In this document: piece by piece, positions 11,158 through 35,510 of the stretch
Layout: each line of letters starts with the position of its first letter
Numbering within the stretch: position 1 is the first letter of the stretch
DNA from: Verrucomicrobia bacterium LP2A
Lineage (GTDB): Bacteria; Verrucomicrobiota; Verrucomicrobiia; Methylacidiphilales; Methylacidiphilaceae
DNA: 64,000 nt
Direction: 5' to 3'
NCBI GenBank assembly: GCA_000526255.1
Contig: JAFS01000002.1
Span: 806,001-870,000, forward strand
Position numbers and translations under genes: made by a program
The notes under the pieces: generated by a model
The model's database searches: none
Told to the model about the DNA's origin: nothing
The model's input: the letters and a program-made list of their open reading frames with translations, nothing else

Positions 11158-13654
<2,497 letters not shown>

Positions 13655-13669
13655 AGGTTTTCCTCTTTC

Positions 13670-14818: not shown

Positions 14819-16108
14819 TCATTTCCGCACGTTCCTCGGGTGGACGCGGACAGAGGCCGACCGGCCATGCGCCGCGAGCCCTTCGATCTCTGCGAATTGC
14901 GCGATCTTGGGCTCCACGCGCGCGAGCGCCGCCCGCGAATACTCGACGAGGCTCGTGCGCTGGAAGAAGTGCTCCATCCGCAGCCCGTCGAAAGCGCGCG
15001 CCGAACCACCCGTAGGCAAGGTGTGGCTCGGTCCCGCCAAGAAGTCACCGGCGGCAACGGGTGAATAGTCGCCCAGGTAGATCGCTCCGCAGTGGCGCAC
15101 CTCTTGGGCGGCCAACCGCGGCCGACGGACGGCAAGGCTCAGATGCTCGGGCGCAAACTCTCCCGCCAGATCCAATGCCTCCTCCAGGTTCCGGGTCAAG
15201 ACGAAGAGCGCATGCTCGGCCAAGACCGATTCGACCATGCTTCGGCGAGGCAGGGTCTGCACAGACTCCTCGATCTGCGTGAGCACCTCTTCCAAGACCT
15301 TTGGGCTCGGGGTCAACAGCAGGATACGGCTCGAGGAGCCATGCTCGGCTTGCGCCAGCAGGTCGGCAGCCACGAACTCCGCTCGCGCGCTCTCGTCGGC
15401 CACGACGGCAACCTCGCTGGGGCCTGGGAGCAGGTCTACGGCGACCAGCCCGAAAAGCTGCCGCTTGGCTTCCACGACGTAAGCATTGCCGGGTCCAAAA
15501 ATTTTATCGACCGGGCGAATGCTTTCGGTGCCATAGGCCAAGGCGGCGACGGCCTGGGCGCCCCCCACCGAGTAGACCTCGGTGGCTCCGGCGCTACGAA
15601 GAGCGTAGGAGAGAACGGGGTGGATCGGCGGAGGGCTCACCGCCACGATCTCCTTCACTCCCGCTTCCCGGGCAAAGGGGATCGTCATCAAGGCGGTGGA
15701 GATCAAGGGGGCGGTTCCGCCGGGGACATAGACGCCGACCCGGTCGAGGGGAAGAAAGCGTTCCCCGACCCAAGCGCCCTCCCGGTTGCGCATCCTCCAG
15801 TCCCGCGGACGGGATGCCCGGGCAAATCGGCGCACGTTGGAAAGCGACCAAGCCAGAGCCTTGCGGACCTCGGCCGAAGGGGCCTCGGCCAGCTCCTTGC
15901 GGCACAATTCCGACGGGGCGAGGGTTACCCGGTCGAGCTCCTGGGTGAGCTCGACCAGCGCCTTGTCCCCTTTGGCTGCAACGCGTTCCAGGATGCCGCG
16001 GACTCTCTCGGCAAGCTCAAGGCTGGGAAAGGCGCGTCGGCGAAGCTGCTTTCGGACCAGGCCCGGGTCTTCCCGGTCGCAGTAAAGAATCCGGTAACGG
16101 CTCGTCAT
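14819..16108 (-). CDS. hisD: histidinol dehydrogenase
   Basis: Zinc enzyme for the last two oxidation steps of histidine synthesis. About 429 aa from the ATG at 16108 (MTSRYRILYCDREDP), which matches the family length; 77 further open codons upstream look non-coding. Family marks: LDRVGVYVPGGTAPLISTAL, VYSVGGAQAVAALAYGT, KIFGPGNAYVVEAKRQ, LPGPSEVAVVAD, the zinc/base region QAEHGSSSRILL and the C-terminal GPSHTLPTGGSARAF. mcsB starts 48 bp downstream on the same strand, so they may share a transcript. Other his genes are not in the window. Confidence 0.95.
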   Translation of the reverse strand: MTSRYRILYCDREDPGLVRKQLRRRAFPSLELAERVRGILERVAAKGDKALVELTQELDRVTLAPSELCRKELAEAPSAEVRKALAWSLSNVRRFARASRPRDWRMRNREGAWVGERFLPLDRVGVYVPGGTAPLISTALMTIPFAREAGVKEIVAVSPPPIHPVLSYALRSAGATEVYSVGGAQAVAALAYGTESIRPVDKIFGPGNAYVVEAKRQLFGLVAVDLLPGPSEVAVVADESARAEFVAADLLAQAEHGSSSRILLLTPSPKVLEEVLTQIEESVQTLPRRSMVESVLAEHALFVLTRNLEEALDLAGEFAPEHLSLAVRRPRLAAQEVRHCGAIYLGDYSPVAAGDFLAGPSHTLPTGGSARAFDGLRMEHFFQRTSLVEYSRAALARVEPKIAQFAEIEGLAAHGRSASVRVHPRNVRK

Positions 16109-16408
16109 AACCGATTCATTGTAGCAGATCATGCGCCAATCTCCCGCGAAATTTCCCCGGCGTCGTCGTCCCTCGGACGTTCGCTTTCTCTCCGGAGCCT
16201 GCAGGCGCAGGTGGGCAAGGGAATCCTGGAAGCGGGGGAGTCCCACAGCCCCTTGCGGCGCCTCGACCAACGCTCTTGGTTTTGAGGGAGGGAAAAAAGA
16301 CTCGCTCTTCGTCCGGCGTTCTGATGTAATGTCAACCACTCAAACCCCTGGGAGAGGAAGGATGGGGCCCATGGCCTTCCGATTCTCCACAGGTTCCGGG
16401 AGAAAAAC
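16109..16408 (+). other. intergenic region, no gene seen
   Basis: This 300-bp gap lies between divergent hisD and the Met/Gly-rich gene. Short open frames here lack family signals. It probably carries both promoters, but I see no consensus -35/-10 pair. Confidence 0.4.
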
Positions 16409-16849
16409 ATGAAAAACACCGCGTTTGTCAGGAAATCGACCCTCCTATTGGGTGCGCTCGGTCTGCTGGGAGCCTTCTCCCTTTCTCCGCTCCACGCCCA
16501 GCACCAGCATCATGACGGAGCCAAGAAGGGCGATACGGAGCAGTCCGCCGAAGATCAGGACGAGCACGAAGGCCATCAGATGGAGGGAATGGAGCATGGC
16601 AAGAAGAGCAGCTGTATGGGTGGCATGGGAGGTATGGGTGGGATGGGTGGCATGAGCCACGGCATGGGCGGCATGGGCGGTATGGGCGGCGGAGGCGGGG
16701 AGAATTGGGATCAGATCATGCACGAGGTGGAAACCACGAAGAACCCCAAGGCCACGGCTCGCAAGCTCCGGATGAAAGCCGATCTCATGAAAGCCGACGC
16801 CGAAGTCCTGCAGAAATACGCCAAGGAGCTCGAAACCGGGAATCCCTGA
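16409..16849 (+). CDS. secreted Met/Gly/His-rich protein, candidate metal binder
   Basis: 146 aa. A signal peptide (KSTLLLGALGLLGAFSLSPL then HAQHQHH) is followed by an acidic His-containing stretch (DEHEGHQMEGMEHGKKSSC) and a low-complexity block of GGM repeats (about residues 69-97), ending in a charged helix-like tail (KATARKLRMKADLMKADAEV). Methionine- and histidine-rich secreted segments commonly bind Cu(I)/Cu(II) or other soft metals; that role here is inference. In a methanotroph copper handling would be relevant. The repeat DNA is low complexity and prone to length change. Confidence 0.7.
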   Translation: MKNTAFVRKSTLLLGALGLLGAFSLSPLHAQHQHHDGAKKGDTEQSAEDQDEHEGHQMEGMEHGKKSSCMGGMGGMGGMGGMSHGMGGMGGMGGGGGENWDQIMHEVETTKNPKATARKLRMKADLMKADAEVLQKYAKELETGNP

Positions 16850-17097
16850 CCCTCCCTCTGTTCTCAATCCCGCTCAATGGCAGCGGGGCGTGGAGAGGAG
16901 GCGTCATGGACATTCCGGTAGGCGTCGCCATTCGGCGGCGGCCGATGCCCCAAGGGACAGCGCGTAGTCGGGGGTATATCAATCGCCGCAGTCAAGGAGG
17001 ACGCCGCCGAGCGACCCAGATGCGTCTCGGTCTCTGGAAGCCTCTGGCCATTCTATAAAGGAAGCAGGGAGACGTTCAGTCTCTCAACTGTCTCTCT

Positions 17098-17120
17098 TTG
17101 GACTAGACCATTGAGTCCAA
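17098..17120. promoter_or_regulatory. candidate TetR operator
   Basis: Perfect 7-bp inverted repeat TTGGACT (17098-17104) and AGTCCAA (17114-17120) with a 9-nt spacer, centred about 30 bp before the TetR-family gene start. Spacing and base pattern suit a TetR dimer, so autoregulation is likely. The rest of the 289-bp gap (16850-17138) shows no gene. Confidence 0.55.
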
Positions 17121-17138
17121 TGGCGTCACGATCTCTCC

Positions 17139-17822
17139 ATGCCGAAGGAGACGGAGCCTGGACGTCGGCTCACCGCGCGCGGCGCTGCGATGCGCGGTCG
17201 CTTGATCGAGGTGGCGGCCGCGCTGATCTACGAAAAGGGAGCCAGCCGGACGAGCCTCGACGACGTCCTTGAGAAGAGCGGAGCGAGCAAGTCGCAGCTC
17301 TACCACTACTTCGCCGACAAGGACGCCCTCATCCTCGCGGTCATCCGTTGGCAGATCGAGCGGGTGCTTGCGCTGCAGCAGCCTCACTTGGCGCAGCTCG
17401 ACTCCCTTGAGGCGCTCTGGCGATGGCGGGATGCCGTTCTTGCCCTCGCAACAGCCGCACCCGGGTTGCGGGGTTGTCCGCTCGGCTCGCTTGCCAATGA
17501 ATTGGCCGGCCGGTTCGAGAATGCCCGATCGCTCTTGGCCGGCGGCTTCGACCGTTGGCGAGAGGCGCTCGAAGCGGGTCTGGGGGCGATGCGGGCCCGC
17601 GGGGAGCTCGCAGGCTCGGCGGACCCCCGCGCGCTGGCGCTGGCCATCCTCGCGGCACTGCAAGGCGGGCTGCTTCTTGCCAAGACGGCCCAGACGATTG
17701 AGCCACTCGAAGCCGCGCTCGAGGTGGCCCTCGAGCATGTCGCCCGCCACGCGACCAGGAAATCCGCTCGCAAAGGCGGAGCTGCGGCTGCGCGATCGAG
17801 CCCAGAACCCAGGAAACCTTGA
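17139..17822 (+). CDS. TetR/AcrR family transcriptional regulator
   Basis: 227 aa. The N-terminal helix-turn-helix is clear: GRLIEVAAALIYEKGASRTS, LDDVLEKSGASKSQLYHYFA, DKDALILAVIRWQIERVL. A ligand-binding helical domain follows with the CPLGSLANEL motif seen in the TetR subgroup with a C-terminal domain like PF16925. The C-terminus is Arg/Lys/Ala-rich. A palindromic operator lies just upstream. No target gene is next to it on the right, where island 1 begins; the target may have been separated by that insertion. Confidence 0.88.
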   Translation: MPKETEPGRRLTARGAAMRGRLIEVAAALIYEKGASRTSLDDVLEKSGASKSQLYHYFADKDALILAVIRWQIERVLALQQPHLAQLDSLEALWRWRDAVLALATAAPGLRGCPLGSLANELAGRFENARSLLAGGFDRWREALEAGLGAMRARGELAGSADPRALALAILAALQGGLLLAKTAQTIEPLEAALEVALEHVARHATRKSARKGGAAAARSSPEPRKP

Positions 17823-17925
17823 GCGATGGGCTGGCATTCTGCCTCGCGGTTCGGCTCGCCCAGCGGCTCCCAGGTCTGAAATGCAATGCGATGGTGCGGA
17901 TCTCGCGTGTCTTGCCCTTCCCGAT

Positions 17926-18078
17926 TCACTCGACCTCTCGCCCGTCCTCGAACAGGATGAAGCGGCATTTCACCGGCACAGCCTTGCCCTGCGGATTGAG
18001 ATTGAATCGGTCGCGCTCTTCGAGCGCGCTGAGCTCGCAGGCTTTCTTCGCGGGTTGGCCCTCGACGGGCCCATCTGT
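17926..18078 (-). pseudogene. short decayed coding remnant at the island edge
   Basis: Directly after the stop of the OLD-like ATPase gene, the same frame continues with no start codon as DGPVEGQPAKKACELSALEE and NLNPQGKAVPVKCRFILFED, stopping at TGA (17928-17926). The composition looks protein-like, but I do not recognise it and there is no start. It could be the end of a lost downstream gene. Confidence 0.25.
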
Positions 18079-19785
18079 TTATTGAGCCGGCGTGGCACGG
18101 TTGGCGACCTCGAGGATGGCATCGAGCATTTGGATGACCTCGGGGGCGATCTGTTCCAGTGGGATGACTTCGGCCAGCCGATGGTAATCGCGCTTGTAAG
18201 TCCGCTGGGGCGTGCCCAGCCGCTGGTAGAAGTTCTCGAACAGGGGATCGAGGAAGTCGTCAGTGACCTTGATGTCCGGTCCCCAGGGATCGGGGCGGTG
18301 CGCCACGGCCAGGGCCTGAGTCAGTTCGTCAATACAGTCCGCCATGATGGCTGTGCGGCGCTGGCACTCGGCCCGCTCGATCAGGTCGTCCTCTGACAAG
18401 TCAAGTTGAACGAAGGCGAGGAGGCTTTTGCGCGTCACGAGGTAGTTTTCGATCTCGCGGCGGGTCCACATACGCTCGGCAAGCTGCGATCCGGTGTGTA
18501 GCTCGCCTTCGAGTCGGTCAAAGACGGCGATGCCGACCAGGTCGGGCTTGGCCTCGCGCAAGCCTTGGAAATGGCTGCGGGCATCCTGGGGCTTGTTGCC
18601 ATCGGTATAGATGACAGGGACCGAGGCCGCAAGGACAGATTTGGAGGAGTGCTTCAGCCGCAGTGACAGGCTGCGCAGGACGGCCAAGTCGGTGGAGCCT
18701 TCAAGGTAGAGCATCCAGCCTTTCTGCTCGGCCAAGCAGTAATCGTCCATGCGGATACTTTCCAGAGCCTTTTTCACTTGGTTGCGCGAGTGGGTGTCGA
18801 TGCGGTGCGGTTTGCCCACAAAGGCCATGACGACATCACGCCGGGCGGCCTCCTGCAAGACGACCTCGGAATGGCTGGCAGCGACGATTTGGGAGCCGTT
18901 GGCCGCGGCGATGTCGGTGAGCAGGTTGTAGACGTCACGCTGGCGGAGGATTTCCAGGTGCGCATCGGGCTCGTCGAGCAGCAGCACGGCGCCCGGATTG
19001 GCTAGCATGAAGGAGAGAAGTAGCAGCACCTGCTGGCAACCGCGCCCAGATGAGGAGAGATCGAGCTCGATGCCGTTGCGTTGCTTGTAGCTCAAGGAAA
19101 GCTCGGCTCGTTCCTTGATGTAGAAGGGATCTTGCAGACGGATGTGGAATAGCGCCTCAATGCGCTCCACCAGCTGTTGCCAGGCAGCCTGATCTTCTCT
19201 GGAAAATATTTGCCAACAGAGATTGCGCAAGACTTGAGCGGTCTGACCTTCGCCGATCAGCACGCTGATTTCGCCCGGTTCCTTGCGGTGTTCGCGCGCG
19301 ACTAAGCCGGACATGGGCGGCAGGAAAACTACGCTGTGCTTGCGGGCACCCTCAGGGATCTGTCCGTCCTCCCCGCTCTTCAACCGACAATAGAAGGATT
19401 CCTCGTTGGCATAATAAAACTCCAGCGCGCAGGACCAAGGCTTGTCCGCATGCACACCTTCGGCTTCTAGGGTGATGTAGACCTTGGCCGTCTTTCCCGC
19501 TTTGTCCTGCGCATGGGTATGCAGATCATTCCAAAGCAGCTTGGAGCTCGGCACTGGAATGGCATACAAGTCGCGCCGGTTGATGGTGACGCCCTTGCGC
19601 TCGGCAGGCGAACTTTTGTCGCGCTTTTCCGCCCAGCGTTTCCAGCCGATGTCCCACAGGGCCAGTGCCTGCAAGGCTGTGGTCTTGCCGGAATCGTTCG
19701 GACCGATGAAAACGACGGAGTCGCCCAATTCCAGCTCGGCCGATTCCAGCCGCTTGAAATTGGCGATGCGGAAACGGGTAATCAT
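18079..19785 (-). CDS. OLD-like AAA ATPase with TOPRIM-type C-terminal domain
   Basis: 568 aa. The N-terminal ABC-type ATPase has FRIANFKRLESAELELGD, Walker A FIGPNDSGKTTAL (about 27-39), the signature LDLSSSGRGCQQVLLLLSFM and Walker B GAVLLLDEPDAHLEIL, then a switch-like VAASHSEVVLQEA. The C-terminal half has the TOPRIM-like acidic motif MLYLEGSTDLAVLRSL and a later AVFDRLEGE. This is the OLD/RecF-like layout found in anti-phage nucleases (OLD, Gabija GajA relatives). No helicase partner is adjacent; the left neighbour is a remnant and the right one an IS copy, so it may be an orphan of a larger system. It is the first intact gene of island 1. Confidence 0.75.
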   Translation of the reverse strand: MITRFRIANFKRLESAELELGDSVVFIGPNDSGKTTALQALALWDIGWKRWAEKRDKSSPAERKGVTINRRDLYAIPVPSSKLLWNDLHTHAQDKAGKTAKVYITLEAEGVHADKPWSCALEFYYANEESFYCRLKSGEDGQIPEGARKHSVVFLPPMSGLVAREHRKEPGEISVLIGEGQTAQVLRNLCWQIFSREDQAAWQQLVERIEALFHIRLQDPFYIKERAELSLSYKQRNGIELDLSSSGRGCQQVLLLLSFMLANPGAVLLLDEPDAHLEILRQRDVYNLLTDIAAANGSQIVAASHSEVVLQEAARRDVVMAFVGKPHRIDTHSRNQVKKALESIRMDDYCLAEQKGWMLYLEGSTDLAVLRSLSLRLKHSSKSVLAASVPVIYTDGNKPQDARSHFQGLREAKPDLVGIAVFDRLEGELHTGSQLAERMWTRREIENYLVTRKSLLAFVQLDLSEDDLIERAECQRRTAIMADCIDELTQALAVAHRPDPWGPDIKVTDDFLDPLFENFYQRLGTPQRTYKRDYHRLAEVIPLEQIAPEVIQMLDAILEVANRATPAQ

Positions 19786-19808
19786 TGGTTGGTACTCCTG
19801 AAGATTCG

Positions 19809-20549
19809 GCCTCTTCGCTATTTCAACCGGGGAGAGCCGGAAGATCGAGCCGCAACTTTCCGGCTTTGAGGAGCGCAGGAAGTCTTAGGTAGCGGAAGCT
19901 CCGAAAGCCTCTGGCCATCCTTGTGGCCGGTTGGATCAGCCCGTTGATCGCTTCGATGGGTCCGTTGGCGATCCAGCCCTGGAGAAAGGCGATGATTTCC
20001 CCCAGGTGTTCTTTGATGGTTTTGGAGAGCCTTCGGAAGCGGGAAGCTCGCTCCCCGCCCTGGCCCAAGGAACCTCCAGCAGCCGAACTTCATGCTCCGG
20101 GCAGTCGATTCGAGGAACCCGAGCGATCGACTCGGTCCGGTACTGCCAGCAGTTTATGTGCCGGTACCGCTTCTCCCCCGCGTTGTGTACGGGGGAAGGT
20201 CTTCGACATTCCGGACACGGGAACCGACGACCTTGCTCAAAACGTGAGCCAGATCTGTAGAGTATGTATGCTCTTTCGCGGAGAGCTCGCTCTGGCCCAT
20301 CTTCCCTTCCGAACCCAGTGGCAGTACCGGAGCGAAACTCTTCTTCGCGTCCGTCCCGCAAGCGTCAACCAGGCATCCTGGCCTGGCAGTCCACAGTTGA
20401 GGAGGATCGACAAAGGCGAAGTGCCCTTGACGGCTGTCCGGCCTCGTCCCTTCCCACAATCCGTTGAAGGCGGATGGCAAGAACCCCGCTTCTTGCCATC
20501 CCTTAACGGAAAATCCGCTCTCCTTACCCACTTCATTCAGCGAGGAACC
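19809..20549 (-). mobile_element. ISL3-like short element A (internally deleted, MITE-like)
   Basis: About 741 bp carrying both ends of an ISL3-family element. On the minus strand the zinc-finger N-terminus (FPCPECRRPSPV, YRTESIARVPRIDCPEHEV) runs to VPWARAGS and then jumps to the far C-terminus (RLSKTIKEHLGEIIAFLQGW, MARGFRSFRYLRL). The catalytic DDE region is missing and the two parts are out of frame. The terminal sequences GGCCTCTTCGCT and GGTTCCTCGCTGA are imperfect inverted repeats. Its right end supplies the stop of the AlbA_2 gene. The same deletion is seen in copy C (57874-58611). Confidence 0.75.
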
Positions 20550-21721
20550 GATTTTCGCGTCATCTCTCGCGCACTGGGCCGCACCACGATAGCCTTGAAG
20601 AGATTCCCGGTACGATCATCGATCAGTTCAATCTGAGGCCAGGCTCGCAGTGCCCGCAGCAGGCCGCTGCCCAAGCCACGGTAGGGAAGAAGCTTGGCGG
20701 CAAAGGAAGCCAGGATGGGATTGCGCATATTGGAGTTGCCGGCCTTGACGTTCTCGATGGTCAGGTTGTTAGGCAGGTGACCGGGGCTGATGATCTCGAC
20801 GCGATCCGCAAACACCAGGACGCGGACCGGGGCGCTGATGAAATAGTCGCGATGGATGAGAGCGTTGACGACCAGCTCTTCCCACACGATGCGTGGAATC
20901 TCGGGTTGACCCTGGGAGTTGAACCCCTGCTCTCCCTGCTCCGCGCGGGTGTTGGCGATGATGAAGCTCAACGTCTGATGGAACAGATCCGCCAGCTTGC
21001 CGGTGATGTCACGGCTGTCGATGTAGCATTCGTCCACAATCTGTGTGCCGACAAAGGCGACAGCCTTAACGATGAAGGCAGGCAGCGTGTAGTGCGGCGC
21101 TTTAGCGAAGAGCAGGCCGCCCGCCACATTGAGCTGCCCACGGCTCATCAGCTTCATGTTGGTGAGCAACTGCGGCAGTGGCTGGTTGTGCTGGGCAAGC
21201 GGCTCGCCGAATTGCTCCTTAAAGAACTCTTCGAAATAGGACATGTCCACATCGCCCGCGCCCAGGCCTGCCACCAGTGTTTCGTCGCCATGCACCAAGC
21301 CCGACTCCTGGAATAGGCGCTGAAGCTCTTCGCGCGAGGTTGCGCGGCGCTTGTCTGAGGCACTCTTCACCCAGAAAACACCGTTTTTATCCTGGTACGG
21401 CTTACTGATGCCTTCAGGAATGGAGACCACCATCACTGTGCCATCTGGGTGCGGCACAGTGTCGGTCAACAGATTGACAGCGGGCTTGACGTTCTGCGAG
21501 GCCGCGTTGGCGACAAGTTGATTGAGGCGAGCCAAGTCGGCAGCGGACAGACCGCGCACCGAGCCATCATCATTCACGCCGATGAAGATGCGTCCACCCG
21601 AGCTGTTGCTGAAGGCGACGATCTCGGCCGCTAGGGCATCGGGATTCTTCACGTCCGCCTTGAACTGCTGGCGGCTGTCCTCGCCCCGTGTGAGGAGGTC
21701 GATCAGCTCTGTGGCTTCCAT
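20537..21721 (-). CDS. AlbA_2 (Schlafen-type) domain ATP-binding regulator
   Basis: 394 aa. The N-terminal AlbA_2/Schlafen domain has EDSRQQFKADVKNPDALAAE and IVAFSNSSGGRIFIGVNDDG. The C-terminal half has the GHKL-ATPase-like block EIPRIVWEELVVNALIHRDY, VEIISPGHLPNNL and NPILASFAAKLLPYRGLGSG, typical of COG2865-type predicted transcriptional regulators. Its start overlaps the 3' end of the PHP-ATPase gene by 19 bp, so the two are one transcription unit. The last few residues and the TGA stop come from the inserted ISL3-like element, so the native C-terminus is slightly altered. The usual end of this family includes a winged helix, which may have been lost. Confidence 0.8.
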   Translation of the reverse strand: MEATELIDLLTRGEDSRQQFKADVKNPDALAAEIVAFSNSSGGRIFIGVNDDGSVRGLSAADLARLNQLVANAASQNVKPAVNLLTDTVPHPDGTVMVVSIPEGISKPYQDKNGVFWVKSASDKRRATSREELQRLFQESGLVHGDETLVAGLGAGDVDMSYFEEFFKEQFGEPLAQHNQPLPQLLTNMKLMSRGQLNVAGGLLFAKAPHYTLPAFIVKAVAFVGTQIVDECYIDSRDITGKLADLFHQTLSFIIANTRAEQGEQGFNSQGQPEIPRIVWEELVVNALIHRDYFISAPVRVLVFADRVEIISPGHLPNNLTIENVKAGNSNMRNPILASFAAKLLPYRGLGSGLLRALRAWPQIELIDDRTGNLFKAIVVRPSAREMTRKSVPR

Positions 21722-24372
21722 AGGTTATAAACCTCTTTGCGACGGTCGAACGCTTCCCGGCCTCCTTCCATGATGTTGATGATGGCTTCCTGCACCGGAC
21801 GGGCATCGATGCTGCCGCTTTGCACGGTGACTTTCTCGTCCTGGTAGCTGCAGGCGAGCACCTGTTCCGCGTCGCCCAGAACCGGGAAATTGGCGTTGTG
21901 GGTGGCAAAGATGAATTGAACGTGCGGTTTCATTTCGCGCAGCAGCTTGATCACATCGTCGTAGATGGTCTGGTTGTCCAGATCGTCTTCCGGTTGGTCG
22001 ATGATGATTACGTCATTCTGACGTTGGCTGAGCACGTAGAGCAGCAGCGCCGAAGCGCGCTGCCCGAGCGAGTGGTGCTTCAGCTCCTTGCCGCGATAGC
22101 GGATCTCGAAACGGTTCGGCACCTGCCAGGTGACGAACTCGACCAGGTTCTGCATGAAGGTCTTCTCGAAGATCTCGGGGCTGCTGCCGGCCTTGGTCAA
22201 AGCCCCTGACAGGTTACGCAGGAGGCCGCCGAAATCGGCATAGTCCTCCATGACCGCGTGCAGGGTGGTTTCTCGGATGTTGCTACCCTTGAAAAGCTGC
22301 TGCATGAAGCGGATGGCTGCTGCCTTGTCACCTTTGAAGTCGGCTTCGATCTGCAGGGATGTCTGACCCGCGTTCACGCGGTCCAGTTCCTGCTTGATGG
22401 TGTTGAACTCGTGCAGCCAAAGCTCGTTGAGCTTTTCGATCTCAGCAAACAGCAGATCACGGATGCTGATCTGCTGTGATTCCTGCTTGGTCAACGCCTG
22501 CAGCGTCTGTTCCGCCTTGATTTTGCGCTGCTGCTGGACCAGGAACTCATCCGGCTGGATGGCGGTCATGCCGGTCTGCTTGAGCTCCTGGGCAAGTTGC
22601 CGCTCGCGTTGTGCAAATTCCTCCTGAAGGCTCGTGCGTGCGCCTTCAAACTCGCCTTGTTTGGCGACGAGACGGCCAGCAATGGTGCGTGCCTCCCGCT
22701 CAATCTGCTTGAGCTGATCGACCTTGGCGATGAGGTCGGCAAAGTCGGCGTAGTAGGCTCTGAAGAAGTCCGGGTTCTGCTTGGATACGTAGCTCGTTGC
22801 GTTGCGCAGCTCGTCCTCGTGTTCGGCGATCAATTGCCCTAAGGCGAGGATGAAGTTGTCTGCCCGGTCTTTCATGCGCGCAAGCGCAGCGGCGTCCTGC
22901 TCGAAGCCGAGACGCTTTTGGAGCTTATCGGCGATACCGGACTCCTCGAACTTCTTCAGCCGGAAGTTGGCATCGGTGAGTTGCGCCTCGAAATCGCGCT
23001 TGCGTTCGGGGATGTTGCTGAGATTGAGCCATCTCCCTGCGGCTTCACGCACGCGCTGGCGTTGAGTCTCGATTTCCTCACGCAGCACCCGCAGCTTCTC
23101 GCCGACCAGCTTTTCCACCAAGTCGGTCTCGAAGCCTTCCCCGGTACTGGAAAGATCTTTCTGTCCGAAATAGATCGGGCGGCGCAGTACGGTTTCTCGG
23201 ATCGACACGCCGGGCTGCAACTCGCCACCCAAGTAGACGTTTGGCGCCTCGCGGAAGATGCGGGAGATGGTGAACTCCTGCCCGTACAGATCGCAGGCCG
23301 TCAGCGTCGCCTTGCCGCCGCTGCCTAAAGCATGGCGGATCAACTCGTCTTTGTACTTGGTATCCTGCGCCTTCTCGCCCCGTGGGATGTCGAGGGCATA
23401 GCGCACCACCTCCAGGATGGACGACTTGCCACTGCCCCGGATGCCGATGAGCGTGTTCAGTTCGGGGGAGAAATGCAGCGTCTGCCCGTCGAGGACGCCG
23501 CCCTCGAAGAGGATGCTGCGAATGTGCGATGCCTGATGTTTGGGTGGCTCCTTGGCTACCCGCGCAGCGGGTTCGCTCAAAGCGAACTTGACCGCCTCGA
23601 AGGAGAGCTCGCCCAGCTTCAGGTAGCCGGCTTTGCCCCGACCGATTTCCTCAATGCGCTTGGGGTCGCTGCCCTCCACTTCGGCGGGGTACCAGGGCTG
23701 CAGCCAGCTTTGAATCTTGGTGCGACAAGGCTTGTCTTTGCCTGCACCATCGCGCGTGCGAACCTTTTGGAAGCCAAGGGTTCTGCGCCGAAAGCGCTCG
23801 TCCTGCGCTAACTCAGCAAGTCGGCCGCCAGCCAGCTCCGCCCATAAGCCACTGGATGCTTCGACATGGGCGAAAACGAGGAAGAAATCGCGGTGCTGGT
23901 TTTCCAGCTTCGTGATTGTCTCCGAGAGAGAACAAGAAGTGCGGCCGTTCTCCTGCTCGTACTGCGCAGGCGTCTTGCCTTCGAATGCACTGGTCAGGAA
24001 AGGGTTGATATAGTCGTGTTCATTCAGCCATTCGTCTGAGAATACAACGAGCGTGTGGATGCCATGGGCCCCGTCGCTGACCGATAACTCGACGCCGGGA
24101 AGCAGCGCAATACCCTTCTTCAGAACGGATTTGCGTAGTGCTGTGAATTCATCGAAGTCGAATTTATTGTGGTTGGTGATGACGCCAAGACGGATGCCTG
24201 CTTTCTCCAACGCAGCCATGTAGTCGCTGTTGTAGACGTTGTTGGCGCCCGTGTACGTGAACTCGCGATCTGCACGGGTGTGTAGATGGAAGTCTGCGCG
24301 AATCCACTGTGCCCCTTCTGGAAAGACAACGGATCGAGTCCCTGACTGCTTTGGTGGCAGACTTTCCTTCAT
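21703..24372 (-). CDS. PHP-domain plus SMC-like AAA ATPase (TrlF/Ppl-type, predicted anti-phage)
   Basis: 889 aa. N-terminal PHP phosphoesterase: metal motif ADFHLHTRADREFTYTG (HLH at 29-31), GVITNHNKFDFDEF, LLPGVELSV and HGIHTLVVF. An SMC/ABC-like ATPase follows: Walker A LIGIRGSGKSSILEVVRYAL (about 310), a long coiled coil (about 440-700), signature LGQRASALLLYVL, Walker B DVIIIDQPEDDLDNQTIYDD and switch FIFATHNANFPVLGDAEQVL. This layout is that of TrlF-family proteins and of the PHP-ATPase called Ppl in anti-phage surveys. The molecular target (DNA, tRNA or nucleotide) is not known to me. It overlaps the downstream AlbA_2 gene, so the pair probably works together. Confidence 0.85.
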   Translation of the reverse strand: MKESLPPKQSGTRSVVFPEGAQWIRADFHLHTRADREFTYTGANNVYNSDYMAALEKAGIRLGVITNHNKFDFDEFTALRKSVLKKGIALLPGVELSVSDGAHGIHTLVVFSDEWLNEHDYINPFLTSAFEGKTPAQYEQENGRTSCSLSETITKLENQHRDFFLVFAHVEASSGLWAELAGGRLAELAQDERFRRRTLGFQKVRTRDGAGKDKPCRTKIQSWLQPWYPAEVEGSDPKRIEEIGRGKAGYLKLGELSFEAVKFALSEPAARVAKEPPKHQASHIRSILFEGGVLDGQTLHFSPELNTLIGIRGSGKSSILEVVRYALDIPRGEKAQDTKYKDELIRHALGSGGKATLTACDLYGQEFTISRIFREAPNVYLGGELQPGVSIRETVLRRPIYFGQKDLSSTGEGFETDLVEKLVGEKLRVLREEIETQRQRVREAAGRWLNLSNIPERKRDFEAQLTDANFRLKKFEESGIADKLQKRLGFEQDAAALARMKDRADNFILALGQLIAEHEDELRNATSYVSKQNPDFFRAYYADFADLIAKVDQLKQIEREARTIAGRLVAKQGEFEGARTSLQEEFAQRERQLAQELKQTGMTAIQPDEFLVQQQRKIKAEQTLQALTKQESQQISIRDLLFAEIEKLNELWLHEFNTIKQELDRVNAGQTSLQIEADFKGDKAAAIRFMQQLFKGSNIRETTLHAVMEDYADFGGLLRNLSGALTKAGSSPEIFEKTFMQNLVEFVTWQVPNRFEIRYRGKELKHHSLGQRASALLLYVLSQRQNDVIIIDQPEDDLDNQTIYDDVIKLLREMKPHVQFIFATHNANFPVLGDAEQVLACSYQDEKVTVQSGSIDARPVQEAIINIMEGGREAFDRRKEVYNLWKPQS

Positions 24373-24441
24373 CGCCCCTCCTCGTGCGCTGACCGTCCCG
24401 CGATCTTGGGCCGCTGCGAGCGCTTGTGCTTCATCGAAAAG

Positions 24442-25832
24442 ATTTGCTTTGCGCTATTTCAACTGGGTTGAGCCCGAAGATCGAGTCGCAACTTTTCGGC
24501 TTCGAAAAACGCGCCAATTCCCAGGTAACGGAAGCTTCGAAAGCCGCTGGCCATTCTTGGGCAAGCCGGATCGGCCCGTGGGTGGCTTCTTCGATGGTTC
24601 CGTTGGCAATCCTGCTCCGGGGAAAGGCGTCTGATTCCTCCCAGGCGTTCTTTGATTGTTTTGGAGGCTCTTTGGAAGGGCGCAACCCGACTGCGATCCC
24701 CTCACGGGCATCACCAGCGGGTCTCTTGGAAAGCCTTTGCAACCCAAAGGCTCTTCCCAATCGAGGATAGGCGGCGCAAAGGGAACTCCGCAGACCCTTC
24801 TGCTCCTCGCTTCGCGTCCATTCGTTGCCTCGGAGCGCCCAGAGGCTTCCTTTCGGCAGCAACCCTTGACGCCCGAACTCCTTGCGCACCTGGTCGACCG
24901 CCTCTCCCGCCATCTGCATGACATGGAAATGATCGAAAATCCTCTCCGCCTTCGGAAAAAACTCCCGGGCTCCAGAGATGTAGGAGGGGCTCATATCCAT
25001 GCAGACCGCTTCGATCTGCCCCGGATCGGCATTATGTTCCTCCATCTCCTTGGCGAAGGCTTCCAGAGCCTCCTTTCCTCTGCCCTCGGCAAGGAAGAGC
25101 AGCTTCCGGCTCTCCGCATCGGTAACGACCGTCACGTAACGGTGGCCCCGCTTGCTACTGGTCTCATCCACCAGGATCTTCTTGACCTCGCTCCAGTCCT
25201 CGCGTCGGTAGGCCTTTTCCACGTAGTGCCCCAAGACCCGCCAGAGCCGGGTATCTTGCTCCTTGAGCATCTCCGCCATCGCGGAAACCGACATCTCCCG
25301 GGAAAGCATCCAAATGACCGCCTCCATCATGAGAGTAAACCCGCTCCCCGCCCTGGCCCAAGGAACCTCCACCAGCCGAACTCCATGCTCCGGACAGTCG
25401 ATCCGAGGCACCCGAGCGATCCACTCGGTCCGGTACTGCCAGAAGTTCATGTGCCTCCACCGCTTCTCCACCGTGTCGTGTACGGGGGAAGCTCTTCGAC
25501 ATTCCGGACAGGGAAACCGATGACCTTGCTCACAACCCAAGCCAGATCTTCAGAGTGTGCTCCTTCGCAGAGAGCTCACTCCGGCTCACCTTCCCTTCCG
25601 AACCCAGTTGCAGCGCCGCAGCAAAAAGCTTGTTCGCGTCCCTTCCGCAAGCATCAACCAGGCAGCCCGGTCTGGCAATCCGCCGTCAAGGAGGATCGAC
25701 GAAGTCGAAGTGTCCTTGACGGCTTCCTCTCTCCCCAAAAATCCGTCGAAGACGGAGGGCAAGAACCCCGCTTCTTGCCATCCCTTAACCGAAATCCGCT
25801 CCCCCCTTACCCACTCAATTCAGCGAGGAGCC
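24442..25832 (-). mobile_element. ISL3-like element B (longest copy, decayed)
   Basis: About 1.39 kb. The right end reads GCTCCCCCCTTACCCACTCA then CAGCGAGGAGCC (ending 25832); the left end is near GCGCTATTTCAACTGGGTTG. These match the ends of copies A and C. It includes the central transposase region that A and C lack. The left boundary is uncertain by about 10 bp and I see no clear target duplication. It sits between the PHP-ATPase gene and fic. Confidence 0.7.
24459..25540 (-). pseudogene. ISL3-family transposase, frameshifted
   Basis: An intact N-terminal two-thirds: zinc-finger FPCPECRRASPV, AVIWMLSREMSVSAMAEMLK, DDE-type catalytic motifs ILVDETSSKRGHRYVTVV, AVCMDMSPSYISGAREFFP and RIFDHFHVMQMAGEAVDQV. 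Near the C-terminus the frame breaks at least twice: the conserved SKTIKERLGGI, IANGTIEEATHGPIRLA and SGFRSFRYLGI lie in different frames. The end that should read GFRSFRYLRIAAFLKAGKLR is out of frame. It is probably inactive, unless the breaks are sequencing errors. Confidence 0.75.
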
Positions 25833-25869
25833 ATATATTTCGACTGATAGTCAGTAATCATAGCCTGCA

Positions 25870-26964
25870 TCACCTTCCCCCCGACACGTCAAGGAATAGG
25901 CGCACAAGGTCCGTGTTGACGTAGTAGTTGCTCCGGCCCGAGCGATGCTTGGCGACGAAGCCGTTCTCCGCCAGCAGATCGAGATACTTGGCCGCCGTCT
26001 GACGGGAGACCTTGAGGTCTTTCACCACGAAGTCGATGCGTGTGTAAGGGTGGCGGAACAGGTTGTTCAGCAGGTCTTGCGAGTAAAGGTTCGGCAGATC
26101 GTCGCGCAGCCGCTTCTTCCCGCTGGCCATCTGGGTTCGTATGCCCTCGACCAGCGCGAGCGTGATTTGCGCCGTGTTGGCCACGGCCTCCAGCATATAA
26201 AGAATCCAGTCTTCCCATGCGCCTTTGGTGCGCACCGCCTGAATCAGGCGGTAGTAGTCCGCCTTCGTCCGCGTGATGTGGCGCGAGAGATAGAGGATCG
26301 GGGTTTCGAGAAGCCCGGCGCGCGTGAGATAAAGCACGTTTAGGATGCGCCCAATGCGTCCGTTCCCATCGGAAAACGGGTGGATGCTCTCGAACTGGTG
26401 GTGGATGAGCGCCATCTTGATAAGCGGATCGAGGGAAGAGCGTTCGTCCTCGTTGATGAAGCGCTCCAACGCCGACATTGCCGCTTCGATCTCGCGCGCA
26501 TCCTGCGGCGGGACATAGACTACCTCGCCGGTGGTGTCGTTCTTGAGCGCGGTTCCGGGCGTGACGCGAAACCCGTCGTCCCGGCGCTTGAGAAGGCGGA
26601 ATATCTCGATCAGCGTGCGGTTGGTGATGAGGCCGTCGGACGTAAGCAGCCGGTCATAGCCAAGCTTGAGGGCGTCGCGGTAAAGGGCGACTTCCTTGGC
26701 GGCTGGGGAAACTAGCCCCTCAAGCTGAAGGTCGGCCTGGAACAGTTCGTCCTGCGTGGTGACGATGTTTTCGATTTCGGAGGACGTCTTCGCCTCCTGA
26801 AGCGCGAGCGTGTCGATAAGGATGCCCTGATTGGGGATCGTCGCCGCGCGCCCTTTCAGTTCGGCCAGGGCGCGGTTTGCCTTGGCAAGCGCCTTGAGCA
26901 CCGGAACCGTTTCGAGGTTCACCGGCGGCGGCAGGGCGGGAATGGCATAGCTCGGCTTTAACAT
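25870..26964 (-). CDS. Fic-domain protein with N-terminal inhibitory helix and C-terminal winged helix
   Basis: 364 aa. Fic core motif HPFSDGNGRIGR (about 195-206) has all the catalytic and phosphate-binding residues, so AMP (or other NMP) transfer to a target hydroxyl is expected. The inhibitory motif SSEIEN (61-66) fits (S/T)xxxE(G/N) before the core, i.e. a class II self-inhibited Fic. The C-terminus RIDFVVKDLKVSRQTAAKYL, DLLAENGFVAKHRSGRSNYY is a winged helix-turn-helix. This Fic-wHTH layout is widespread, often autoregulated and sometimes counted among toxin-antitoxin or defence genes. Two inverted repeats lie just upstream. Confidence 0.92.
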   Translation of the reverse strand: MLKPSYAIPALPPPVNLETVPVLKALAKANRALAELKGRAATIPNQGILIDTLALQEAKTSSEIENIVTTQDELFQADLQLEGLVSPAAKEVALYRDALKLGYDRLLTSDGLITNRTLIEIFRLLKRRDDGFRVTPGTALKNDTTGEVVYVPPQDAREIEAAMSALERFINEDERSSLDPLIKMALIHHQFESIHPFSDGNGRIGRILNVLYLTRAGLLETPILYLSRHITRTKADYYRLIQAVRTKGAWEDWILYMLEAVANTAQITLALVEGIRTQMASGKKRLRDDLPNLYSQDLLNNLFRHPYTRIDFVVKDLKVSRQTAAKYLDLLAENGFVAKHRSGRSNYYVNTDLVRLFLDVSGGR

Positions 26965-26976
26965 GTCGGCCAGTAT

Positions 26977-27005
26977 GTGTTAAAAATATCATATATCCTT
27001 AACAC
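26977..27005. promoter_or_regulatory. inverted repeat over the fic promoter
   Basis: Perfect 7-bp arms GTGTTAA (26977-26983) and TTAACAC (26999-27005), 15 nt apart, enclose an AT-rich stretch with TATGAT on the fic strand. It is well placed to be an operator for autorepression by the Fic winged helix. Confidence 0.5.
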
Positions 27006-27013
27006 GTCAGAAG

Positions 27014-27040
27014 CGACAGGTATAGGGAAATTGCCTGTCG
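27014..27040. promoter_or_regulatory. second inverted repeat in the fic-abiE gap
   Basis: Perfect 7-bp arms CGACAGG (27014-27020) and CCTGTCG (27034-27040), 13-nt spacer. Either an operator for the divergent fic gene or a short hairpin; no T-run follows on either strand. Confidence 0.35.
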
Positions 27041-27084
27041 TTGACAGATCGCCAAAGCTTGGCCGTGACGCGCTACACTAGAGA

Positions 27085-27125
27085 AAGTGAACTTTCACGC
27101 ATGTCAGATGCAGGAAAGTTCACTT
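27085..27125. promoter_or_regulatory. long inverted repeat upstream of abiEi, candidate AbiEi operator
   Basis: Perfect 12-bp arms AAGTGAACTTTC (27085-27096) and GAAAGTTCACTT (27114-27125) with a 17-nt spacer, 140 bp before the abiEi start. AbiEi proteins are known to bind inverted repeats upstream of their own operon and repress it cooperatively; this fits in type and position. Confidence 0.5.
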
Positions 27126-27264
27126 CGCAGGGTGAGGAAGGCTCCCTTTGGGCCGGAACCGCCGCAGCATCGTATTAAAAAATGCGCCCTGAAAGCGGAT
27201 TTTCAAGAATGATCCGATTATAGAGTCATATTGCCCATTCCGCGCTAAGAGCGGATAATGAGAT

Positions 27265-28092
27265 ATGATCAGAGTTGAACGATCAGCCCTGTCCTCCTAC
27301 GCTTCCGGCCTGCTTGCCAGGGGCCGAGGGGTCTTTTCTGCGGACGAAGCGCAGAAGGAGATCGGCATTAGCCGGGGCGCATTCCTCGATGCCGCCGAGC
27401 GATTGCAGCGGCGCGGCCAGCTCATTCGGCCCAGGCGCGGCTTCTACGTGGTCGTGCCGCCACAGCACGCCACGACGGGAGCGCCACCGCCCGAGTGGTA
27501 CATCGACGCCCTGATGCGCCACGAAAAGCGGCCCTATTATGTGGGGCTGCTGGCGGCGGCGGCGGCCCACGGCGCTTCCCATCAGGCCGTCATGGAGTTT
27601 CAAGTCGTCACAGATAAACTCCTGCCCGACATCGAGGCCGGACGGACGCGGATCGTCTTTTCCTACCGCAAGGACATGGCGGCGGTGGCGGCGGGAATCG
27701 AGGATCGCAAGACGCAATCGGGCTATATGAAGCTGTCCTCGCCGGAACTCACGGCGCTCGATCTGGTGCGCTACCCGCAATCCGGCGCGGGCCTGGACAA
27801 CATTGCGACGGTGCTTTCCGAGCTTGCCGAACGGCTGCAACCGGAAAAGCTCGCCTCCCTGTCGGGCGCCTTCGAGAAAGCGGTCGTGCAACGCCTTGGG
27901 CATCTGCTCGGAAGGCTGAGGCATCCGCAGATTGCGGAGCCGATGTTCGTGGCGCTGTCGGCGCGCGGGCCGCTGCCGTGGGTCGAACTCGATCCCAAAC
28001 AGGCGGGCGATCCCGATTTGTCGCCGCCGCCATCCGAACGCGATGAACGCTGGCGCGTGATCGTTCGCCGACCGCCGGAGATTGACGAGTGA
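27265..28092 (+). CDS. abiEi: AbiEi-type antitoxin / transcriptional regulator
   Basis: 275 aa. An N-terminal winged helix (GVFSADEAQKEIGISRGAFL, LQRRGQLIRPRRGFYVVVPP) is followed by the AbiEi domain (YYVGLLAAAAAHGASHQAVM, then SSPELTALDLVRYPQSGAGL). It represses its operon and counters the AbiEii toxin in a type IV toxin-antitoxin system. The stop overlaps the abiEii start by 4 bp. A long inverted repeat upstream is the likely binding site. Slightly longer than many AbiEi proteins because of a Pro/Arg-rich C-terminal tail. Confidence 0.88.
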   Translation: MIRVERSALSSYASGLLARGRGVFSADEAQKEIGISRGAFLDAAERLQRRGQLIRPRRGFYVVVPPQHATTGAPPPEWYIDALMRHEKRPYYVGLLAAAAAHGASHQAVMEFQVVTDKLLPDIEAGRTRIVFSYRKDMAAVAAGIEDRKTQSGYMKLSSPELTALDLVRYPQSGAGLDNIATVLSELAERLQPEKLASLSGAFEKAVVQRLGHLLGRLRHPQIAEPMFVALSARGPLPWVELDPKQAGDPDLSPPPSERDERWRVIVRRPPEIDE

Positions 28093-28949
28093 TCCCGCAG
28101 GATTATATCACCGCCTGGAGCCGCGTCGCGCCGTGGGCAAGCCAGCGGCAGGTCGAGCAAGACCTCGTCATCAGTCGCGCGCTTGTCGCCATCTTCTCCG
28201 ATCCATTCCTGCGTGGCGAACTGCGCTTTCGTGGCGGCACGGCGCTCAACAAGCTGCACTTCCCGGCGCCGCTGCGTTATTCGGAGGACATCGACCTTGT
28301 GCGGACGACAGCCGGTCCCATCAGCCCGCTATTGGACCGCCTGCATGACGTTCTTGATCCGTGGCTGGGCAAGCCGCGCTTCGATCAAAGCCCCGTTGCG
28401 CCCAAGCTCAAATACACGGTCGAAGCCGAAGACAGAGATTCACCGAGCCCGATAAGGCTCAAGATCGAAATCAACACACGCGAACGGGAAGCCTACGATC
28501 CGCCCATCGAGATACCGTTCGGCGTCGAAAATCCGTGGTTCGCCGGCGAGACCGCCATCCCGACTTTCTCGCGGGAGGAAATGCTGGCGACTAAGTTGCG
28601 GGCTTTGCTTCAACGCAACAAGGGCCGTGATCTATTCGACTTCGATCACGCGCTCACTGTGTTCGAGGGGTTGAACACAGCCCGGATCGTCGAATGTTTC
28701 CGGCTCTATCTTGAAAAGGCGGAGGTGACGCTTTCCAGGGCCGAAGCGCAGCAGCGCATGTTCCAAAAACTCGCCAATCCGACCTTCTTCACCGATATGC
28801 GCCCGCTGCTTTCGACGGATCGCGCCAAGGCCCTGACCGACGAAACGCTCAAGGCCACGTTTGTCCGGGTGATGAAGGAACTGATTGACCGGATACCCGG
28901 CGACGAATGGGCAAAGGCCGGAGAAATGCGGGAGCGGTTTGGCGTCTAA
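28089..28949 (+). CDS. abiEii: AbiEii-type nucleotidyltransferase toxin
   Basis: 286 aa, GTG start overlapping the abiEi stop. The polymerase-beta-like nucleotidyltransferase motif is RFRGGTALNKLHF followed by RYSEDIDLV (metal-binding SEDID), then REEMLATKLRALLQRNKGRD with the KLRALLxRxKxRD block typical of AbiEii. Relatives such as MenT act by adding nucleotides to tRNA. All catalytic residues seem present. An IS1380-like element is inserted exactly at its stop codon, with TAA inside the duplicated CTAA target, so the protein is unaltered. Confidence 0.9.
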   Translation: MIPQDYITAWSRVAPWASQRQVEQDLVISRALVAIFSDPFLRGELRFRGGTALNKLHFPAPLRYSEDIDLVRTTAGPISPLLDRLHDVLDPWLGKPRFDQSPVAPKLKYTVEAEDRDSPSPIRLKIEINTREREAYDPPIEIPFGVENPWFAGETAIPTFSREEMLATKLRALLQRNKGRDLFDFDHALTVFEGLNTARIVECFRLYLEKAEVTLSRAEAQQRMFQKLANPTFFTDMRPLLSTDRAKALTDETLKATFVRVMKELIDRIPGDEWAKAGEMRERFGV

Positions 28950-30659: not shown

Positions 30660-30744
30660 CTAAATATCTATTGCGCAACAATAAATCATCGCTCTGTCTA
30701 GTCGCTGCAATCGTCAGAAACATCCGGCAGGAGGCAGCGCAACC

Positions 30745-31104
30745 ATGCTCGTAGCAGACCGTATCGTCCGCATGAAAACCGTTCTCGCCCGCACCGGCCT
30801 GTCCCGGTCCACCATCTACCGCAAGATCGCCGAGGGCACGTTCCCGCCTCGGATCAAGATCAGCATCAACGGCGCAGGATGGAAGGAATCCGACATCGAC
30901 CGCTGGATTACCGATCCCGCTGGCTGGCGGGCCACAATGACAACGACTGGCAGAATAGACGTGAGGCGCACGCAGTTCAGAGATCGTCGTCCAGTTCGTC
31001 GTCGTGGACCTCGGCGGCACGCTGCTTCGCGTCGGCGATCAGGTCTTTTGCGGATTCACCCTTTCCCCAAGCGTCGAGCATGTCAGCCCGGCACTGAAGC
31101 ATGA
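30745..31104 (+). CDS. AlpA-like DNA-binding regulator (prophage/island excisionase type), altered C-terminus
   Basis: The N-terminal ~60 residues are a typical AlpA/MerR-like helix-turn-helix: RIVRMKTVLARTGLSRSTIY, RKIAEGTFPPRIKI, GWKESDIDRWITDPAGWRA. AlpA proteins control integrase and excision genes of islands. The family is usually about 70 aa; here the frame runs on for 50 more Arg-rich residues antisense to the 3' end of the integrase, which look non-native. It probably lost its stop to a deletion that joined it to the integrase end. GC and codon use match the integrase. Confidence 0.65.
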   Translation: MLVADRIVRMKTVLARTGLSRSTIYRKIAEGTFPPRIKISINGAGWKESDIDRWITDPAGWRATMTTTGRIDVRRTQFRDRRPVRRRGPRRHAASRRRSGLLRIHPFPKRRACQPGTEA

Positions 31105-32241
31105 TCTTCCGCTCGGCGAGGTAGCGGTTCACGTTGTAGACAGCCGCGATCCGGTTCCGAGGCGCGTGAGCCAAGCTCATCTCGATCCAGCGATCATCGA
31201 ACTTGGCGCGGTTCAGGCCGGTCGAAAACGTGCGGCGCAGATCGTGAACACCGAAGCTCTGAAAGTCCGGGTCATTTTCGCGGATGCGCTCTACAACCGT
31301 GTCGATCACGCGGTTGAGCGTAGCGTTGCTGATAGGCACATCACCGTCGTACCGGCCGGGGTGCAGGTATCGGCTGAGGCCGAACATGGTGCGGAACGCC
31401 GTCAGAATGTCGAGCGCCTGATCGTTGAGCGGGACGACATGCGGCTTGCCGGCCTTCATGCGTTCGGCCGGGATCGTCCAGCGCGCGGCAGCGAAGTCGA
31501 TTTCCTTCCAGGTGGCGTCGATGAACTCCGACTTGCGGACGCCGGTCAGCAAGACAAACTTCACCGCTGAGCGCAGCGTGGGCGCGGCCGTCACATGATC
31601 CAGAGCCGCCAGGACCGCGCGGACCTCGGACGGCGACAGAGCGCGGTCGCGCGGCTCGAACATAGCGATGGCGCTGGTGCGGATCGACTCGGCCGGGTTG
31701 CTCACGTCCAACCCGCTTCCCTGGGCAGGGCGGAACACCAGCAACACGACCTCGCGGACATGCACGGCGACAGCCGGCCCGCGCTTCTCTTTACCCTCGT
31801 CGCACAGGCGTTTGAGACGCTGCGGCGTCACCTCCCCCAGCTTGAGCTTCGACATCTCGCCCGCGATGGCGCGATCGTAGACCGATCGGCGCATCGCCAA
31901 GGTATACTATCAGCCGGTCTCTCGGCTCCCGATTTGGGATCGGCTTTGTGCTTGAAATAGGCTTCCGCCCACCCGCCGAATGTCAGCGCCTCCGCTGACG
32001 CGGTGCGCTTCTGCACTTTGGCTTTCGACGGCGATTCGCCCCGCTCGACCTGACGCCTGGCGCGCGCCAGCAGCGTCCTGGCCTCCGCAAGCGACACGTC
32101 CATTCCGTATTCTAGCGCGTCGGGTGCGCGTATGACCCCGGTCGGCGTGACGGCCGCGTGCATCCCGTCGCGGTCCGTCATCTTGTAGAGCTTGGCTCTC
32201 GGCTTCAGAGTTTTCAGTTCTTTATCAGTGAGTTCTCTCAT
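30977..32241 (-). pseudogene. P4-type tyrosine integrase, frameshifted
   Basis: The N-terminal part starts MRELTDKELKTLKPRAKLYK at 32241 (DUF4102-like). The catalytic part follows from about 31900 in another frame: LLTGVRKSEFIDATWKEIDF (first Arg), SFGVHDLRRTFSTGLNRAKF (His/Arg), SLAHAPRNRIAAVYNVNRYL (His and Tyr). The break is at a TA duplication near 31906 (AGTATACC where AGTACC would read through). About 20 residues between TPTGVI and RAPDALEYG also seem missing from the N-terminal domain. It stands next to the 3' end of guaA and was presumably the integrase of island 1. Confidence 0.85.
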
Positions 32242-32460
32242 AAATCCGCATCCGGTCGGGGGGCGAACGGACACCATCAAGAGGAGCTGGTGGTATCGGA
32301 AGCCCGTTTTCCGACCAGCCTGCGCCATACCAACATCGGTACCAACGAAGTGGCTCGGCTGGCGTGACATGCAGCGATACGGGGTGGGAAAAATAATCCT
32401 TGTCAGTCAACGGGATCGTGCGATTTCCGGCACGGAGCGGGATGGTCTGAAACCACCCCA

Positions 32461-32478
32461 ATTCACTCCCACTCGATC
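32461..32478. other. candidate attachment site at the guaA 3' end
   Basis: The last codons of guaA and the bases after them (ATTCACTCCCACTCGATC) adjoin the integrase side of island 1. The guaA 3' end is a known target of P4-type integrases. I did not find a full second copy in the window; only the 8 bases ATTCACTC recur at 17924-17931, at the other edge of the island. Confidence 0.35.
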
Positions 32479-34079: not shown

Positions 34080-34083
34080 TGCC

Positions 34084-35262: not shown

Positions 35263-35264
35263 GA

Positions 35265-35510
35265 TCAGATTGCCCCTTTCTCCTCATTGGCGATCACTCG
35301 TTGCTCCGCCGAGCAGGACGGGCAACGAAACTCCTGGCGATTCGGCGGAATCGTGATCCTCTCCCCGCAGAACCGGCAAACGACCCTTATTCTGGCCGAA
35401 CGCCGCCAAGCGCCTCTCCTTGCGCTAAAAGACAACCATACCCAAAGAAGGACCGCAAGAGGAACGGCGACGTAGAGGAGAAAGGCCTCCGGCATCGTGA
35501 TTCGCATCAT
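35265..35510 (-). CDS. small membrane-anchored zinc-ribbon protein
   Basis: 81 aa from the ATG at 35510, which overlaps the TonB-like stop (ATGA). An N-terminal membrane segment (FLLYVAVPLAVLLWVWLSFS) is followed by an Arg-rich linker and a CxxC...CxxC zinc ribbon (RVVCRFCGERITIPPN, then FRCPSCSAEQRV). It ends 2 bp before the guaB3 start. Function unknown; such ribbons often scaffold small protein contacts. Longer in-frame starts up to 35753 would lie inside the TonB-like gene. Confidence 0.72.
   Translation of the reverse strand: MMRITMPEAFLLYVAVPLAVLLWVWLSFSARRGAWRRSARIRVVCRFCGERITIPPNRQEFRCPSCSAEQRVIANEEKGAI

Follow-up and report, generated by a model that had tools for sequence, protein, structure and literature searches.

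The closest published counterpart of the gene pair described here is the Temperature Restriction Locus (TRL) of Photorhabdus laumondii, which is formed by trlR-trlF-trlG (Hapeshi et al., 2020; PMC7554251). In that work TrlF was annotated as a histidinol phosphatase, the three-gene set was reported from few genomes, and the growth arrest of Photorhabdus at 36 °C was found to require an intact trlG. Growth at 36 °C was restored by 16 different changes in trlG, comprising 12 missense mutations, 2 nonsense mutations and 2 IS insertions (repeats of one change counted once), the corresponding number for trlF being zero, and complementation with the operon brought the arrest back (PMC7554251). Schlafen RNases with a minimal histidine kinase have furthermore been described near BREX systems in at least 1017 taxa (PMC12839542); the main text of that paper contains neither 'PHP' nor 'Trl'. 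In PARIS (AriA-AriB), an SMC-like ATPase is combined with a putative translation-targeting effector. Ppl is known as a single-gene system.

The trlF-trlG pair of the window

The window (the whole stretch of 64,000 nucleotides that was analysed) contains the two open reading frames from which the original prediction started, and their overlap of 19 nt was re-found. The features of the pair are as follows:

21703..24372, minus strand: trlF, 889 aa, PHP phosphoesterase/nuclease-like domain and SMC/Rad50-like ABC ATPase with coiled coil (NCBIfam NF045780; AlphaFold2 model and Foldseek)
23548..24327, minus strand: TrlF PHP domain, approximately residues 16-275, ligands H29, H31, D35, H68, E95, H106, H169 and D236 (conservation in 73 TrlFs; Foldseek to 7ug9 and 3o0f)
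23173..23535, minus strand: TrlF ATPase N-lobe, Walker A GIRGSGKS at residues 310-317
22369..23133, minus strand: TrlF coiled coil, residues 414-668 (helices in the model)
21718..22125, minus strand: TrlF ATPase C-lobe, signature SLGQRASAL, Walker B IIIDQPEDDLDN, H-loop ATHN
21703..21721, minus strand: trlF/trlG overlap, 19 nt, putative translational coupling (from the sequence; the same in 45 of 72 relatives)
20537..21721, minus strand: trlG, 394 aa, AlbA_2/Schlafen domain and GHKL ATPase (Pfam; Foldseek)
21341..21682, minus strand: TrlG AlbA_2 domain, residues 14-127, motif GEDSxxQFK (Pfam)
20639..20884, minus strand: TrlG GHKL/HATPase_c_4 domain, approximately residues 280-361, N-box EELVVNALIHRDY (Pfam)

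The pair is a fresh copy of the known trlF-trlG (TRL) pair. TrlF reaches 573.5 bits against the NCBIfam family TrlF_fam_ATP (NF045780; cut-off 350) over residues 20-883, and trlG, with its AlbA_2 and HATPase_c_4 domains, lies directly downstream of it. The two genes had originally been taken for a system without a name; they belong, however, to the TRL operon published in 2020 (PMC7554251), and NCBIfam holds a TrlF family, the definition of which does not extend to trlR. The two proteins, the gene order and the domain boundaries are as in P. laumondii, AlbA_2 and HATPase_c_4 spanning residues 14-127 and 297-361 in the TrlG of the window (Pfam) and 14-128 and 298-365 in the published protein (PMC7554251). 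Whereas the Photorhabdus locus includes trlR and is situated at polA-dsbA, the pair of the window has an IS copy upstream instead of trlR and is part of a guaA-linked defence island of a verrucomicrobium. Upstream of position 24372 there are only 66 nt of trl-like DNA, followed by ISL3 from 24447, and trlR is absent from this region.

Of the proposed assignment to TrlF/Ppl-type proteins only the TrlF part holds. Ppl resembles TrlF in its PHP N-terminus and ATPase, and the PADLOC profile for Ppl yielded a match of 1e-35 with its best stretch at TrlF residues 20-333. Yet the Ppl_antiphage family (NF042955) scored 151.6 bits versus a cut-off of 1000, for which reason TrlF was rejected as a Ppl. 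TrlF also differs from Ppl in being partnered by TrlG.

The predicted architecture of TrlF, a PHP N-terminus with a coiled coil and an ABC ATPase, was borne out by Pfam, NCBIfam and the structural model. Pfam returned matches to AAA_21/SMC_N; the PHP N-terminus stayed under the Pfam threshold, yet it is covered by the TrlF_fam_ATP match, and the PHP domain is real despite its low Pfam score. The AlphaFold2 model (pLDDT 82.8) matched the PHP domain of RNase AM (7ug9) and the PHP phosphoesterase 3o0f, the heads of SMC, MukB, Wadjet JetC and Rad50 with their coiled coil, and AriA (8ux9_B) (all Foldseek). Among 73 aligned TrlFs the metal-ligand positions H29, H31, D35, H68, E95 and H106 are invariant and H169 and D236 are kept in 72; no variation occurs at the ATPase motifs (Walker A, signature, Walker B and H-loop) either, except for a single row with a gap at Walker A. 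All PHP metal ligands and ATPase motifs are intact in the TrlF of the window.

For TrlG, Pfam identified SLFN_AlbA_2 (1.5e-20) and HATPase_c_4 (3.6e-13). Its model (pLDDT 79.8) has an AlbA_2/Schlafen fold: SLFN5, SLFN11, SLFN13, SLFN14 and the tRNase domain of SAMD9 were matched over shorter stretches, and 3lmm, a bacterial protein, along its length (Foldseek). The second glutamate of the ExxxxExK motif is catalytic in mammalian Schlafens. In TrlG this position is not acidic, as Gln19 (GEDSxxQFK) was found in all 75 TrlGs in which the column is filled, and AlbA_2 paralogues other than TrlG from the loci of relatives (L010, L014, L081 and L082) carry Glu there. Since TrlG has Gln at the Schlafen-motif glutamate and AlbA_2 paralogues from the same loci have Glu, RNase activity of TrlG is uncertain, and a standard Schlafen RNase activity appears doubtful from its sequence. 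TrlG is similar to the bacterial Schlafen/AlbA_2 effectors in its combination of AlbA_2 with a minimal histidine-kinase-like ATPase and in its residence in BREX loci (PMC12839542 and the preprint cited there); unlike them, it has Gln in place of the second motif Glu (75 of 75) and is partnered by TrlF.

The guaA-side island and the ISL3 copies

The pair is located in an island (window positions 16000-35300) beside guaA. The neighbouring features are:

18079..19785, minus strand: OLD/AriA-like AAA ATPase
19811..20549: left copy of the ISL3-family element, with an internal deletion
20522..20549: end of this left copy (repeat D10), from which trlG takes its final codons and stop
24447..25832: right copy of the ISL3-family element, with a disrupted transposase
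25870..26964, minus strand: SoFic-type Fic protein
27265..28949, plus strand: AbiEi and AbiEii, type IV toxin-antitoxin/abortive infection
30977..32370, minus strand: frameshifted tyrosine integrase, adjoining the 3' end of guaA (guaA at 32463-34079)

Starting from guaA-guaB (32463-35262), the broken integrase is followed by an AlpA-like HTH protein, an IS1380 transposase, AbiEi-AbiEii, SoFic, ISL3, TrlF-TrlG, ISL3 and the OLD/AriA-like ATPase. No protein of the window matched any R-M or BREX query protein, and no attachment-site repeat of more than 12 nt corresponding to the 3' end of guaA was found within the window. The GC content of this part of the window is approximately 60%.

Homology to other trl loci covers 20550-24438, that to L031 ending at 20550, and the ISL3 copies abut the trl homology on either side (20549 and 24447). 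The last approximately four codons of trlG and its stop come from the left copy, by which the C-terminus of TrlG has been rewritten. A composite transposon made from the two ISL3 copies is unsupported, given the abundance of the element in the genome (57 matches, about nine of them near full length) and the decay of both copies. The arrangement is one of insertion by a resident IS, and a composite transposon is not proven.

Pairing, spread and genomic context among relatives

Conservation of the pair was checked by scanning a single genome from each species, which yielded 425 TrlF relatives, 80 of which were kept for analysis. trlG directly follows trlF in 72 of these 80 loci and in 72 of the 74 that are assessable; among the eight without a visible trlG, six run into a contig end and only L053 and L065 truly lack the gene. 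The strong coupling that had been predicted from the overlap is kept in relatives, the overlap being exactly 19 nt in 45 of the 72 and 13-31 nt in another 26, with a gap in one; it is therefore not due to chance. TrlF and TrlG co-evolve: distances among TrlFs and among TrlGs are correlated with r = 0.946 (maximum in 2000 permutations: 0.37), the correlation within the close clade alone being 0.51. Two overlapping ORFs take the place of a single trlG in L002 and L078 (Cephaloticoccus primus), next to an intact trlF. Within the phylum of the window any TrlF match occurs in only 20 of 289 genomes, with a near full-length TrlF in five, and trl copies were also found on plasmids; this sparse distribution together with the plasmid copies points to horizontal spread of trlFG.

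The lesser-known part is the repeated nesting of the pair inside R-M and BREX operons. Flanks of 4 kb or more on each side are available for 39 loci, 24 of which have genes of the type I, MmeI, BREX or type III-like kinds by profile; counting L066, which has an Eco57I match (Pfam), raises the R-M/BREX-type loci to 25 of 39 (approximately 64%), and after removal of near-copies 18 of 28 loci have such a context. Given the small number of R-M loci in each genome, this proximity would be far above chance. The TrlF tree requires at least 19 context switches. About a third of the loci stand alone among housekeeping genes, some of them beside guaA, so that the pair does not generally depend on an R-M partner. 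TrlFG near guaA was also observed in L029, L031, L032, L037, L049, L062 and L071.

Two layouts were found in type I operons. In the first, HTH-HsdR-TrlF-TrlG-HsdS-AAA-HsdM, the pair is present on IncC and IncA plasmids (e.g., IncC pNDM-1_Dok01); the second is HsdM-HsdS-TrlF-TrlG-HsdR. TrlFG is also located beside MmeI-type and Eco57I-type enzymes and with SNF2 helicase/methylase/ResIII sets, and in BREX loci it lies between PglX and BrxH. A repeated set in L025, L026, L028, L051, L068 and L095 comprises an MmeI-type enzyme, a 684-aa protein without any Pfam or PADLOC match, a GIY-YIG protein (MUG113/T5orf172) and then TrlF-TrlG. In L110 trlFG is flanked by an SNF2 helicase and N6 methylase on one side and a ResIII protein on the other, a type III-like set. 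L022 has a 371-aa AAA ATPase (13026-14141) between hsdS and hsdM, as in TrlFG-bearing type I operons. Yersinia ruckeri pYR3 (L113), the TRL of which is one of the few three-gene matches of the TRL paper (PMC7554251), has trlR and trlF separated by an hsdM remnant (listed at 5983-6369) of 431 nt with 74% identity to L109, and because of this remnant its TRL resembles a type I locus in decay. TrlR was also considered as the HTH regulator of type I operons, which was rejected as TrlR of pYR3 has no similarity to that HTH protein.

Growth arrest and possible function

The size of trlF is over twice that of trlG, and by gene size alone it is very improbable that all Photorhabdus suppressors would fall in trlG and none in trlF (p = 5.6e-9). 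Since recessive loss-of-function alleles of trlG relieve the arrest and operon complementation restores it (PMC7554251), TrlG promotes growth arrest, and the repressor role that had been considered for the AlbA_2 partner is unlikely. TrlF is either dispensable for the arrest or a restraint on TrlG. The Photorhabdus locus itself was not recognised among the 395 sampled Enterobacterales, and the alleles were therefore mapped by the numbering of the paper with an offset of +1. Nine of 11 suppressor residues (S16, V35, A36, A74, R125, P317, S330, N334 and G353) fall on TrlG columns that are 92-100% conserved; of the other two, the Arg80 column holds Arg in 65 of 76 TrlGs and Lys in the copy of the window, and the Ala193 column is variable. 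As the affected residues lie on conserved columns in AlbA_2 and GHKL alike, TrlG needs both domains.

The pair travels as a unit, often inside R-M or BREX operons, and is therefore probably a mobile defence module which halts the growth of its own cell. The two-gene defence module of the original prediction thus stands as a conserved, coupled unit in a defence-type neighbourhood, but not as an unnamed, Ppl-type or repressor-controlled one. We favour, with some caution, the view of trlFG as a mobile, self-contained growth-arrest unit that provides second-line defence against phages and other mobile genetic elements, with TrlF gating TrlG. TrlF, by its SMC/Rad50-like ATPase and PHP metallo-phosphoesterase, would most likely monitor DNA, be it DNA ends, aberrant or invading DNA, or a restriction or BREX partner that has been disabled. 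It would thereby gate TrlG, which with its Schlafen-fold AlbA_2 domain and GHKL ATPase would carry out the arrest, and the pair would act as a second line behind modification-based defence. RNA or tRNA would be the target of TrlG in this putative division of labour, and phage defence a probable role of the pair. The published phenotype, a heat-induced growth arrest without any phage (PMC7554251), counts against this explanation, as do Gln19 of TrlG and the loci that stand alone, and the literature searched held no phage assay or phage-resistance work on TrlF or TrlG.

Alternatively, TRL may be a temperature or stress regulator, as was originally proposed, which senses heat and arrests replication in order to synchronise life cycles or limit transposition, phage defence being incidental. 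The Photorhabdus genetics and the heat induction of the TRL operon (PMC7554251) speak for such a regulator; its patchy spread on plasmids and islands, its repeated residence in R-M and BREX operons and the lack of a conserved neighbour such as polA among the relatives examined do not fit, and we consider it quite improbable. A pair directed at DNA, with TrlF as the effector, a fused SbcCD-like nuclease degrading foreign DNA, and TrlG as an ATP-dependent adaptor or loader instead of a toxin, would agree with the complete PHP metal site and SMC/Wadjet/Rad50-like ATPase of TrlF as well as with the missing second Schlafen-motif Glu of TrlG. However, the restriction of the suppressors to the smaller gene makes this arrangement unlikely.

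A toxin-antitoxin-like mode of action is a special form of the favoured explanation. By analogy with AriA-AriB of PARIS, TrlF might restrain a toxic TrlG, which would be released upon loss of the R-M partner or inhibition of TrlF by a phage. The lack of trlF suppressors, the match of the TrlF model to AriA (8ux9_B) and the nesting of trlFG in R-M operons are consistent with this, whereas the presence of trlF without trlG in L053 and L065 is not, and such a mode appears possible but doubtful. The likeness to PARIS is one of analogy only, as its effector AriB is a Toprim protein, whereas TrlG consists of AlbA_2 and HATPase_c_4 only, and as TrlF additionally carries a PHP domain.

Extending the favoured growth-arrest unit further, TrlFG might be a general plug-in guard, which entered type I, MmeI/Eco57I-type, type III-like and BREX operons on separate occasions and halts growth once the system that hosts it is blocked or overwhelmed. 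The temperature restriction of Photorhabdus would then be a misfiring (autoimmunity) on heat-damaged DNA or proteins. We put this forward tentatively, as an idea that may well prove wrong. With the present assignment, the growth ban of Photorhabdus above 34-36 °C is tied to a widespread module nested in R-M and BREX operons, including those of IncC resistance plasmids, and TRL is predicted to be an immune effector with TrlG as its growth-stopping part. This suggests that modification-based defences have one interchangeable backup unit in common.
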